Part shown: positions 2,059-47,569 of the stretch, in pieces
Layout: the number at the start of each line of letters is the position of its first letter
Numbering within the stretch: the first letter of the stretch is position 1
Assembly: GCF_014773395.1 (NCBI RefSeq)
Contig: NZ_JACXAF010000001.1
Span: forward strand, 62,001 to 126,000
Direction of reading: 5' to 3'
Origin: Neiella litorisoli
GTDB taxonomy: Bacteria > Pseudomonadota > Gammaproteobacteria > Enterobacterales > Neiellaceae
DNA: 64,000 nt
The notes under the pieces: generated by a model
The model's input: only the letters and a program-made list of their open reading frames with translations
Told to the model about the DNA's origin: nothing
Database searches by the model: none
Position numbers and translations under genes: made by a program

Positions 2059-3246
2059 ATGAAAAAAATCACAGATACCGAACAAATCCGAGCGTCCAAT
2101 CGCAAGCAAATCGTTGCTGCATTGCGTGCTCATGGACCATTGGCACGGGTAGAACTTTGTGAGATCACAAGCTTGAGCCCCGCCACCGTCACGGCAATCA
2201 CATCTGATCTATTTAGTATTGGTTTTCTCAAAGAAAGCAGTACTACTCCCGAAGGACATCAGGGTCGAGGTCGCCCCAAGGTCAATATTGACCTCAACTC
2301 AGAAGCAGCTTTTGTCATCGGTATTCTGCCCTCGGTCAACCAGCTTGAATTTGTCCTTGGTGACTTAAAAGGCAACCTGCGTGAAACGCACAAGGTGGCC
2401 ATTCAGCTCGATCGCCTCGATGAAGAGCAATTCATTACCTTGGTGATTGACGGCATCAATGACTTTCTGGCCTTTACCGGCATCGATCGCAATCGCCTCA
2501 GCGCCATCGGCATTGCGATGCAAGGCCCCGTAGACAGCGACGCGGGCGTGATCACCTGGAGTCCTGCGCTATCGATTACCAACGTCCAGATCTGCCAGCC
2601 GCTCGAAGAACGGTTTAACGTGCCGGTTGGCATTGCCAATGACTCAGATATCGTGGCATTGGCCTTGCGCCATTTAAATAACTACTCCCATGACATCAAC
2701 CTGCTGAGCATTGTGCTCGGCCAAGGTGTGGGTATGGGTGCTTTAATCAATGGCCAACTTTACTCTGGCTCTCGCGGCGCCGCCGGCGAGTTTGGTCATG
2801 TCAAGTTCAACCTCGAAGGGCCGCAGTGCCGCTGTGGTGCGCGCGGCTGTATTGAAGCCTATTGCAGCGACTACGCACTATATCGCGACGCTGCCACCAT
2901 CATGCATTTGCCGAGCTCAGATAACCATCGGCCAACCGCCGCTCAAATGCAGGCGATCCTTGATGAACTCGACAATGGCAACGAGGCGCTGCAGCGCATT
3001 TTTGATCAAGCCGGACGAGTGTTAGGACTCGGCATTGCCAACTTAGTCACTGTGCTTGATCCTGAGCGCGTCATTATTACCGGCGCCGGTGTTCATGGCT
3101 TCCCTTATATGGAACAAAGTTTGAAGCGAGCAATGAGCGAGTCGCTCCTGCCAAACCATTCAACCGACATTGTTGAGAGTTACAGCTGGCAAGAAGACTT
3201 AAAAGCAACTGGGGTGATTCAGCTGAGTCTAGAGCGAGGCGATTAA
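2059..3246 (+). CDS. ROK-family transcriptional repressor (NagC/Mlc-like)
   Basis: The protein has 395 residues. An N-terminal winged helix-turn-helix (about residues 10-60, with ARVELCEITSLSPATVTAI) is followed by a ROK domain. The ROK zinc-site signature is intact: GHV, then CRCGARGCIEAYC around residues 255-275. The kinase ATP motif DxGGT near the start of the ROK domain is missing (the stretch reads VIGILPSVNQLEF), so I infer a DNA-binding repressor without sugar kinase activity. The effector is unknown; NagC and Mlc respond to amino-sugar or glucose transport. The gene stands alone, divergent from the phhB and tal-tkt genes beyond it, so control of sugar or pentose-phosphate genes is possible but unproven. 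No strong ribosome site precedes the ATG. Confidence 0.85.
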   Translation: MKKITDTEQIRASNRKQIVAALRAHGPLARVELCEITSLSPATVTAITSDLFSIGFLKESSTTPEGHQGRGRPKVNIDLNSEAAFVIGILPSVNQLEFVLGDLKGNLRETHKVAIQLDRLDEEQFITLVIDGINDFLAFTGIDRNRLSAIGIAMQGPVDSDAGVITWSPALSITNVQICQPLEERFNVPVGIANDSDIVALALRHLNNYSHDINLLSIVLGQGVGMGALINGQLYSGSRGAAGEFGHVKFNLEGPQCRCGARGCIEAYCSDYALYRDAATIMHLPSSDNHRPTAAQMQAILDELDNGNEALQRIFDQAGRVLGLGIANLVTVLDPERVIITGAGVHGFPYMEQSLKRAMSESLLPNHSTDIVESYSWQEDLKATGVIQLSLERGD

Positions 3247-3301
3247 TTCACTGTCCAGTTTTGTTGCCACTGTGGTGTGAATAAAAAACAAACAGAAAAA
3301 G

Positions 3302-3330
3302 TGTGATCTAAATCACCTTTCTACTATAAT
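3302..3330 (+). promoter_or_regulatory. CRP/FNR-like palindrome and -10 box of the small gene
   Basis: TGTGATCTAAATCACC at 3302-3317 fits the CRP pattern TGTGA-N6-TCACA with one mismatch and contains the perfect palindrome GTGAT-N4-ATCAC. A consensus -10 TATAAT lies at 3325-3330, with no recognisable -35 other than the palindrome. The palindrome centre would be about 27 bases upstream of the start of transcription, a position more often repressive than activating for CRP. An FNR-type regulator is an alternative. Confidence 0.55.
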
Positions 3331-3374
3331 CAGCCCGAGCAATCCGCTCGAACTGATTTTAAGAGGAGAGAAAG

Positions 3375-3464
3375 GTGAACAGTCGACTCAAGAAGACCCT
3401 TGAGGACACCCCGTACAGCTTGTGGCTAACGCCGCAGCGGTACATACCAGAAGCGCGGGGTTAA
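3375..3464 (+). CDS. Candidate 29-residue small protein
   Basis: A GTG-initiated ORF of 29 codons sits 7 bases after a strong ribosome site (AGGAG at 3363-3367). It begins MNSRLKKTLEDTPYSLWLT and ends in a proline- and arginine-containing tail, PEARG. It has its own apparent promoter with a CRP-like palindrome upstream, and an intrinsic terminator 23 bases after the stop. The whole unit is therefore a compact transcript of about 180 bases between the ROK gene and phhB. There is no membrane segment or signal peptide. I do not recognise the family. It could be a small protein, a leader peptide, or the coding part of a dual-function RNA. The support is the full set of expression signals around a very short frame. 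Confidence 0.55.
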   Translation: MNSRLKKTLEDTPYSLWLTPQRYIPEARG

Positions 3465-3487
3465 TCATGACAGTCGAAAATTGACAA

Positions 3488-3516
3488 GGCCAGCGATTCA
3501 ACCAGCTGGCCTTTTT
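3488..3516 (+). terminator. Intrinsic terminator after the small gene
   Basis: GGCCAGC (3488-3494) pairs with GCTGGCC (3505-3511) around a 10-base loop, followed by five T. The minus strand has no comparable U-run, so it serves the plus-strand small transcript and not phhB. Confidence 0.75.
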
Positions 3517-3556
3517 CTTGGCTAAATTTGAATTGATAGCCATCCACCTTGAAGCG

Positions 3557-3892
3557 TCATGAAAGCGCATCGGTTTTCGCGGCCATGACAAAATCGTTTT
3601 TGTGTAACCCTTTGATTTTATGAGTCCACCAAGTCACCGTCACCTTGCCCCACTCGGTTAAAATGGCCGGATGATGACCATGCTGTTCAGCCAACTCCCC
3701 AACTTGGTTGGAAAATGCTAACGCCTCGACAAAGTTAGTGAAACGAAACTGCCGCACTAACTTCAATATGCCCAGATCATCAAAGACCTGCCATTGGGGT
3801 ACTTCTGCAGCTAGCGCCGGCATTTGTTCATCGGTTACCCGAGGCGCATCAGCACGGCACGCATCGCAAGTTTGTTGGGCCAGCTCTGTCAT
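3557..3892 (-). CDS. phhB: Pterin-4a-carbinolamine dehydratase
   Basis: PhhB dehydrates 4a-hydroxytetrahydrobiopterin, which regenerates the pterin cofactor used by phenylalanine hydroxylase, and can act as a dimerisation cofactor. It has 111 residues, the normal size. The family signature is clear: [18 protein letters not shown] followed by [14 protein letters not shown] around residues 68-105, with the active-site histidines in GHHP and the H of THKIKGLH. No phenylalanine hydroxylase gene (phhA) is adjacent, though the two are often neighbours in pseudomonads, so its substrate in this genome is open. It is transcribed alone, on the strand opposite to the ROK gene and upstream of no obvious partner. 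Confidence 0.93.
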
Positions 3893-28000: not shown

Positions 28001-28086
28001 GTCCAACATTCTTGTTCAAGGTCAAGTCACCTTCAGTTTTGGTAACTTTATTACGAAAGCTGCTTTCACCGGCCAGAACGAGTGTG

Positions 28087-28099
28087 TATAGTCAATCGC
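28087..28099 (+). promoter_or_regulatory. -10 region of the Spot 42 promoter
   Basis: TATAGT at 28087-28092 lies 7 bases upstream of the conserved first base of Spot 42 (28100). TTTCAC at 28064-28069 is a poor -35 at about the right distance. In E. coli this promoter is repressed by CRP; I see the loose inverted repeat AAGGT-N6-ACCTT at 28018-28033 but no consensus CRP site. Confidence 0.55.
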
Positions 28100-28206
28100 G
28101 TAGGGTACAGAGGTAAGATGTTCTATCTTTCAGACCTTTTAGTTCACGTAATTGAATAGGCTTATATATGCCGCCTCAGCTGTTCGCAGCTGAGGCGTTT
28201 TTTTTG
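28100..28206 (+). ncRNA. spf: Spot 42 regulatory RNA
   Basis: From 28100 the sequence is nearly identical to E. coli Spot 42 over its first 53 bases (GUAGGGUACAGAGGUAAGAU, then UUCUAUCUUUCAGACC and CACGUAAU). It then diverges and ends in a strong terminator: CGCCUCAGCUG (28172-28182), a UUCG tetraloop, CAGCUGAGGCG (28187-28197) and a U-run. Spot 42 is an Hfq-dependent sRNA that represses genes of secondary carbon metabolism when glucose is present. Its location between polA and engB is the same as in enterics and vibrios. The conserved unstructured target-pairing regions are retained; the segment before the terminator is shorter and different. Confidence 0.97.
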
Positions 28207-28443
28207 CACGTCCCGTAGTAAATATCAAACTCAGCTCCAATCGCTCAACTCCTTTCAAGAAAACGGTTACTTTTCGACGTTACCGTAACTTTATAACGCC
28301 GATTCGGTAAGTTACCCCGCTCGAACATTCAGTCCATGCGATCGGTAAAAAATATTTCTGAACTTTATTTGAACTTTTAATTCGGCGGCGGGTCTGAACT
28401 TATGCAAGCAAAAAGTGCTTTGTCCAATCCCCCCTTATTGGAA
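28207..28443. other. Gene-free stretch after spf, possible second sRNA unit
   Basis: About 240 bases with no ORF. An imperfect inverted pair (GTTACCGTAACTTT and GGTAAGTTACC) lies at 28280-28316, and GAACTT occurs three times around 28360-28400. A plus-strand intrinsic terminator follows at 28444. Because spf has its own terminator, this one implies either readthrough or a separate small transcript. Confidence 0.4.
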
Positions 28444-46660: not shown

Positions 46661-47569
46661 CTAACTTATTGGCGTAACAGAGAGAAATGCCGCAGTGACC
46701 TGCTCTGGCGTCAACTCGTCATCAACCAACTCATCGGAGCCAACGCAACAAGCGGCGACTTTACTGGCGATCTGCAAACACTGCTCCGCTTTAAATCCTT
46801 GGTGATAAGCAAACAAATAGCCGGAGAAAAATGCATCGCCAGCACCGTTGCAATCGTTCACTTCCACATCCGCTTCAGCCGCGACTTGATACCACTGATG
46901 GTCGGCCGTTAACGCTACTGCGCCATCCTTACCTTGGGTGCAAACCACCAATTGCTTACCTTGGTCAATGAGTTGCCACATCAGCGGTTTCGGATCGGGC
47001 AGCTTGTCATTGCTCATAAAGACATAGTCTGCGGCCTCGACGAAGTCTTGATGATAGGGATTAACGCCATCGTAATCGTGCAGATCGCACCAAATCGGCT
47101 TGCCCAGTTGCTTGGCAAACGGCAACAAACGGCGGCAATAATTGATAATGTTAATCACCACATGATCGGCGTGCAGCATGGCTTTGGATAAGTGATTGGG
47201 GTCGATGCCGGGCCACTCGCTAGCAGCATGGGTATAGATGCTGATCCGACGACCATCGGGGTCCATGATATTGGTATGGCGCTCGGTGCCTCGGGGATCG
47301 ATATCGGTAAGTAACTGCACCGACGTTCGGCGAAAACGTTGTTGAATTTTGTCGCCCCAGTCATCTTGCCCAAGCACTACATGAAGCAGCACATTGAAGC
47401 CCAAACGCTCTAGGTTCAATGCTTTACCAGCGCCAGTGCCGCCGACTGTTTCATGATAATGGCGGGCAAATAATGCAGCAGGCTGCGGTTTGGGTAAGTC
47501 ATCCAGATCGATAATGGCATCCCAAGACACCCCGCCAGCCACAAATATGGTGCTTTTCTTTTTCATCAC
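46661..47569 (-). CDS. PfkB-family carbohydrate kinase
   Basis: A ribokinase-fold kinase of 302 residues. The first PfkB signature region is VGGTGAGKALNLERLGFNVL and the second is NDCNGAGDAFFSGYLFAYH, with the catalytic Asp in GAGD and the anion hole formed by the two glycines. The N-terminus is FVAGGVSWDAIIDLDDLPKP. Substrate-determining residues cannot be read; ribose, fructose, adenosine or a modified nucleoside are all possible. It is the first gene of a pair with rraA. The C-terminus (ACCVGSDELVDDELTPEQV) is typical of the family length. Confidence 0.87.
   Translation of the reverse strand: MMKKKSTIFVAGGVSWDAIIDLDDLPKPQPAALFARHYHETVGGTGAGKALNLERLGFNVLLHVVLGQDDWGDKIQQRFRRTSVQLLTDIDPRGTERHTNIMDPDGRRISIYTHAASEWPGIDPNHLSKAMLHADHVVINIINYCRRLLPFAKQLGKPIWCDLHDYDGVNPYHQDFVEAADYVFMSNDKLPDPKPLMWQLIDQGKQLVVCTQGKDGAVALTADHQWYQVAAEADVEVNDCNGAGDAFFSGYLFAYHQGFKAEQCLQIASKVAACCVGSDELVDDELTPEQVTAAFLSVTPIS

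Follow-up and report, generated by a model that had tools for sequence, protein, structure and literature searches.

Positions 3302–3519 of the window (the whole 64,000-nucleotide stretch of Neiella litorisoli DNA that was analysed) hold a compact unit which, with a confidence that we put at about even, is a CRP-repressed small-protein gene carried on an RNA with a function of its own, resembling VcdRP of Vibrio cholerae in its working and having a separate origin. This reading is built on the anatomy of the unit, its presence in three species, an excess of nucleotide conservation and a predicted fold. Worded accordingly as a mechanism, a gene standing on its own and some 183 nt long would be transcribed at low cAMP-CRP, i.e. 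with a preferred sugar present, and CRP bound on the -35 region would repress transcription. The transcript would begin with a terminal hairpin and end at an intrinsic terminator, its strong ribosome site would lead to translation of a 29-residue protein with a putative partner, and the RNA would fold tightly across the frame. Since the RNA sequence itself appears to be under selection, a second job of the transcript is most likely, for example pairing with carbon-metabolism mRNAs as putative targets.

A first-pass annotation, made from the letters of the DNA, had proposed a carbon-state-responsive small protein or a dual-function RNA. The place of the operator, the frame in all three Neiella genomes and the constraint on the RNA partly support this proposal, while the activities of protein and RNA stay at the level of prediction. 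If the gene is real, Neiella has independently reached the Vibrio solution, a CRP-switched gene giving a 29-residue protein plus a regulatory RNA, which would suggest that such genes arise readily and escape annotation. The unit would then also provide a very short protein whose expression can be clearly predicted, on when sugar is present and off when cAMP is.

Anatomy and occurrence of the unit

Direct reading places a CRP-type operator, a TATAAT, a ribosome site, a GTG-started frame of 29 codons and an intrinsic terminator all within 3302–3519, and every element named in the first-pass annotation is thus present. The unit sits between the gene of a ROK-family regulator upstream (2059–3246, + strand; Pfam ROK) and phhB (3557–3892, - strand; NCBIfam), which is convergent relative to it. 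The features are:

3299–3320, unstranded: CRP-type operator, core TGTGATCTAAATCACC at 3302–3317, over the -35 position; in 3/3 Neiella species, one with a weaker right half
3325–3330, + strand: TATAAT, -10 element, by direct reading; in 3/3 Neiella species
3336–3350, + strand: hairpin CGAGC/GCTCG, predicted fold, at or close to the presumed 5' end of the transcript; GAGC-AATNN-GCTC in 3/3 species
3363–3368, + strand: ribosome-binding site GAGGAG, by direct reading; GAGGA in 3/3 species
3369–3435, + strand: 67 nt shared letter for letter with N. marina; the 64 kb contain 23 identical runs of at least 60 nt, this one included
3375–3464, + strand: 29-codon frame MNSRLKKTLEDTPYSLWLTPQRYIPEARG, GTG start, TAA stop; open and of equal length in 3/3 Neiella species, joint P 0.013
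3405–3413, + strand: GACACCCCG with CCCC at 3409–3412, codons 11–13; invariant in the three species
3408–3461, + strand: hairpin, arm 3408–3414 (ACCCCGT) with arm 3455–3461 (GCGGGGT); predicted in the folds of all three species
3486–3519, + strand: intrinsic terminator, stem 3486–3494/3505–3513, T-rich tail TTTTTCTT (3512–3519), by direct reading

The spacing between GAGGAG and the GTG (3375) is 6 nt. Judged from the -10 element, transcription would start near 3336–3338, which gives the transcript its length of about 183 nt and places the first hairpin right at the 5' end. The automatic promoter scan listed no sigma-70 promoter at the unit and a good -35 hexamer is not visible there; the -35 position is covered by the operator. 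Likewise, the automatic terminator scan did not list the 3486–3519 stem, because its loop comprises 10 nt and the limit of the scan is 8. In N. holothuriorum this terminator is kept despite changed stem letters. A leader peptide or attenuator reading of the 29-codon frame was rejected, since phhB, which follows, runs convergently and the terminator lies between. Elsewhere in the neighbourhood, a 65-nt run identical to N. marina (1796–1860) falls within a stretch shortly before the ROK gene that looks like a strong terminator.

The frame occurs in all three Neiella genomes, namely the window genome (G000), N. holothuriorum (G001) and N. marina (G002), at one common locus that is flanked upstream by the ROK gene and downstream by phhB. 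All three keep the operator, the ribosome site, the stop and the terminator as well as a frame of exactly 29 codons, and the protein of the window is 86% and 54% identical to the two other copies. The statement of the first-pass annotation that the arrangement is unlikely by chance has gained weight, as the whole of it recurs in the three genomes, in one of them with 29/90 frame bases changed. We therefore regard a chance arrangement without any gene as extremely improbable: short motifs are individually common, and the core TGTGAN6TCAC by itself is unremarkable (1 found vs 0.65 expected per window), but the elements recur together in 3/3 species, the cross-species alignment disfavours chance, and identity between the window and N. 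marina amounts to 0.96 at 3361–3435 vs 0.73 in the flank 3247–3298.

Within the family, 4 of 7 genomes gave a match at E <=0.5, three of them being Neiella. The fourth (G005, E 0.028 and 0.26) was dismissed as chance, the matches lying inside a 328-residue frame or containing stops. G004 belongs to the family but to a different genus; it keeps both neighbours, the ROK gene (79% identity) and phhB, 63 bp apart, and the unit is absent between them. Consequently, either the Neiella lineage acquired the unit or G004 has lost it. This genome, with both neighbours and no unit, allows the states before and after the birth or loss of the gene to be compared.

A protein search of 40 relatives returned 14 at E <=10, and those below 0.01 were the three Neiella only. 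The protein profile matched 24/394 genomes of the order at E <=0.1, i.e. the three Neiella and 21 others with E >=0.008, and 11 of 12 Vibrio genomes at E <=10 (best 0.16). Reading of 22 non-Neiella loci (L019–L040) and 30 loci of the Vibrio search, in search of a CRP-like site followed by a short frame that carries an aromatic motif (a filter that could miss a divergent gene), gave a short aromatic-motif frame in 4 and a CRP-like site in none of those. With the RNA model, scored with stricter filters at the loss of weak matches, 32/394 genomes were hit at E <=5: the three Neiella, the next following at E 0.005. Of the 29 non-Neiella hits 27 were inspected; in two of them a short frame follows an 8/10 site, and both were rejected as unlike. 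Neither protein profile nor RNA model yielded a convincing relative outside Neiella in the 394 genomes of the order. Plasmids gave one hit only (E 4), viral contigs none, and the 29-residue protein has no match in Pfam and NCBIfam. As far as searched, the unit thus appears restricted to Neiella by sequence, and the wider conservation for which the first-pass annotation had proposed to look in Alteromonadales was not seen. In the open-licence literature nothing was found on this Neiella gene.

Coding potential and constraint on the RNA

Frameshifts or an unconserved frame at homologous loci, which had been named as the outcome speaking against the gene, did not occur: the frame is open and of the same length in 3/3, and none of the three species shows an indel in the frame or has lost the ribosome site, the GTG or the TAA. 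Compared with N. holothuriorum 29/90 frame bases differ, 14/29 of them at codon position 3, and pN/pS is 0.247/0.620. Random placement of the same changes gave P 0.047 for the third-position bias, 0.14 for an open frame, 0.052 for the protein identity, and a joint P of 0.013 for open frame and observed identity together. Compared with N. marina, pN/pS is 0.046/0.045 and a sign of protein-level selection is absent. On these alignments the frame is likely coding; the strength of the coding evidence is moderate and that of the RNA-level evidence is greater.

An alternative in which the RNA is the regulatory product and the frame incidental, its 29 codons yielding no functional protein, is in our view unlikely. 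It would suit the ratio near 1 towards N. marina alongside strong nucleotide conservation as well as the moderate coding test, and the invariant residues T12, P13, R28 and G29 coincide with the CCCCG/CGGGG hairpin. It is at odds with the survival of the exact 29-codon length, GTG, TAA and ribosome site through 29/90 base changes, and with the third-position bias and the joint P given above.

At the RNA level, 1/22 synonymous sites are changed in the 29-codon frame between the window and N. marina vs 184/278 in the ROK gene, which is near synonymous saturation; 20 codons of the small frame are identical. A naive binomial for these counts gives 2e-9, and the fairer, empirical figure is that 66/16,146 twenty-codon windows (0.4%) from long frames in the 64 kb agree completely with N. 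marina. The 22 other identical runs of at least 60 nt include ones on Spot 42, at the L31 leader and in coding genes such as putative tpiA. Codon preference is an unlikely cause of the identity, because the frame includes the uncommon codons CTT and CTA (each 8% of the leucine codons) as well as CTC and CGA (13%), although several further codons are the most frequent ones for their amino acid. Towards N. holothuriorum, synonymous change in the frame (0.620) is near the background of the ROK gene (0.764), so that the RNA constraint in that comparison is only local; GACACCCCGT and AGCTTGTGG are unchanged there.

The folds were compared with dinucleotide shuffles, the folded stretches starting a few bases before the inferred transcription start. 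For the window (z -4.44) and N. marina (z -4.88) 0/200 shuffles each were as good, and the N. holothuriorum fold is weaker (z -2.01, 10/200 as good). In the consensus structure, which was derived from the same three sequences that it describes, 93.1% of cells are paired and three pairs are changed on both sides, which lends the structure weak support. The predicted hairpin at 3408–3461 reaches from codon 12 to the final codon, with CCCCG paired to CGGGG, and stops immediately 5' of the stop codon, and the invariance of T12, P13, R28 and G29 may be due to this pairing. Taken together, the comparisons suggest that the RNA sequence itself is under selection.

A small mRNA only, i.e. a CRP-controlled 29-residue protein encoded by an RNA without trans role, is a possible, though not our favoured, reading; the conserved bases would then serve mRNA structure, translation or stability. 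The strong ribosome site and the kept frame are in line with it, as are the structured RNA (5' hairpin, hairpin up to the stop codon) and the outcome of the target search below. The 20 codons without synonymous change towards N. marina, many of them non-preferred, exceed plain mRNA needs.

Regulator and mRNA target search

The 22-mer at 3299–3320 agrees at 19/22 positions with the ideal CRP operator of E. coli. With up to 3 mismatches allowed, the 22-mer pattern has its sole match in 64 kb here and 0 in 100 shuffles. The operator centre lies ~27 bp upstream of the inferred transcription start, over the -35 position, and CRP over this position normally represses. In the N. holothuriorum operator TGTGATCTATATCAAC the left half is CRP-like and the right half resembles an FNR site, because of which FNR retains a small probability as regulator. 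Control by FNR (oxygen) in place of CRP (carbon), with the downstream parts of the mechanism unchanged, would also agree with GTGATCTAAATCAC, which is close to an FNR site too; the TGTGA half-site of the window operator and its 19/22 match to the ideal CRP operator make it very unlikely. On the operator sequences, CRP is likely the regulator rather than FNR. Repression by the catabolite or anaerobic regulator, as suggested by the first-pass annotation, fits the operator over -35, with CRP the likely one of the two.

PTS EIIC genes number 3 in the window genome, 1 in N. holothuriorum and 3 in N. marina. Eight start regions were searched for the putative pairing, comprising five PTS regions of the window genome (including an EIIC-EAL gene), two PTS regions of N. 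holothuriorum and gltA of the window genome. In none of the eight does the seed match at the ribosome site; the matches that do occur lie at -53, -48 and +23. Across the window the seed complement with up to 1 mismatch was found 8 times vs 10.4 expected. When 46 start regions of the window were compared, the best duplex, in raw energies without shuffled-target calibration, was formed with a PfkB-family carbohydrate kinase (46661–47569, - strand) at -34.6 kcal/mol, the next reaching -21.4; the conserved CCCC element finds its complement in codons 11–14 of the kinase. This candidate was set aside because the site is changed in both other Neiella species, and no conserved mRNA target was found in the regions examined. 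As a side observation on PTS genes, the locus L198:2766-11657 contains two adjacent pairs of a PTS EIIC-type gene and an 846–848-residue frame, and by eye these frames read as EIIA-HPr-EI fusions.

The place of the CCCC in codons 12–13, within the predicted hairpin that ends at the stop codon, also allows a more elaborate, coupled switch, in which translation would open or close base-pairing in a genus-born, CRP-repressed gene convergent with VcdRP. We consider this version unlikely.

Comparison with VcdRP and other carbon-state RNAs

VcdRP (Vcr082) of V. cholerae is described as a 306-nt CRP-repressed dual-function RNA with a 29-residue protein; the protein binds and activates citrate synthase and the CCCC element of VcdRP pairs with PTS mRNAs (PMC8672173). 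The earlier statement that the Neiella unit matches no small protein therefore holds for the sequence (Pfam, NCBIfam) and has to be qualified for the architecture, which resembles VcdRP. Orthology with VcdRP, the first guess, was rejected once the Vibrio genes had been located by synteny and the proteins were found to be unrelated.

For the comparison, a Vibrionaceae set of 33/394 genomes was defined by a citrate synthase 88–97% identical to the solved enzyme 4e6y, whose species we take to be V. vulnificus. The permease-gpt genes, presumably the neighbours of vcdRP in V. cholerae, were found in 27/27 Vibrionaceae genomes examined, and the stretch upstream of them was taken from 20 of the 27. 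A VcdP-like frame is present in 15/20 stretches; 12 of these 15 frames have an upstream site with at least 8/10 CRP core bases, and a CCCC lies <=40 nt downstream of the frame in 15/15 copies. In the remaining 5/20 stretches (L136–L140) a recognisable VcdP-like frame was not found at the vcdRP place under the search pattern, and VcdRP may be absent or diverged there. The permease-gpt place of G000, G001 and G005, the one place searched in these genomes, holds no VcdP-like frame.

The Neiella unit and VcdRP have in common a CRP operator at the promoter, a small Hfq-era type transcript (predicted for Neiella) with intrinsic terminator and a 29-residue frame (PMC8672173), as well as a CCCC element with CA before it in most copies. 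In contrast, the proteins are unalignable (hhalign probability 0.2%, E 0.35, for the 3 Neiella sequences vs 8 of 15 VcdP-like sequences), and the loci differ, with the Neiella unit lying between ROK and phhB and VcdRP upstream of permease-gpt. The Neiella CCCC (3409–3412) is inside the frame and predicted to be paired, whereas the Vibrio CCCC follows downstream of the frame. Furthermore, the inferred Neiella transcript of about 183 nt is set against 306 nt, and the Neiella operator overlaps -35, the Vibrio operator being upstream of -35 (both Vibrio values from PMC8672173). The Neiella unit is probably an independent counterpart of VcdRP rather than a VcdRP proper.

Among the E. coli systems, SgrS/SgrT is alike in that a small frame lies within a regulatory RNA of carbon metabolism. 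SgrT differs with its 43 residues, likeness to the Neiella protein not being visible by eye (no alignment), and SgrS/SgrT is controlled by SgrR, not CRP (PMC8672173). AzuCR (IsrB) has its origin in another lineage. Spot 42 (Rfam RF00021) is, like the proposed gene, a CRP-repressed carbon-state small RNA in E. coli (PMC8672173); here it is a separate intact gene at 28090–28204, the only RF00021 match in the window, and 3302–3519 has no Rfam match. The 200 bases upstream of the Spot 42 gene of the window contain no visible CRP-like operator (best 6/10 core bases), and the CRP input may have moved from Spot 42 to other genes here. The Spot 42 gene of the window is identical to that of N. marina over 28085–28207.
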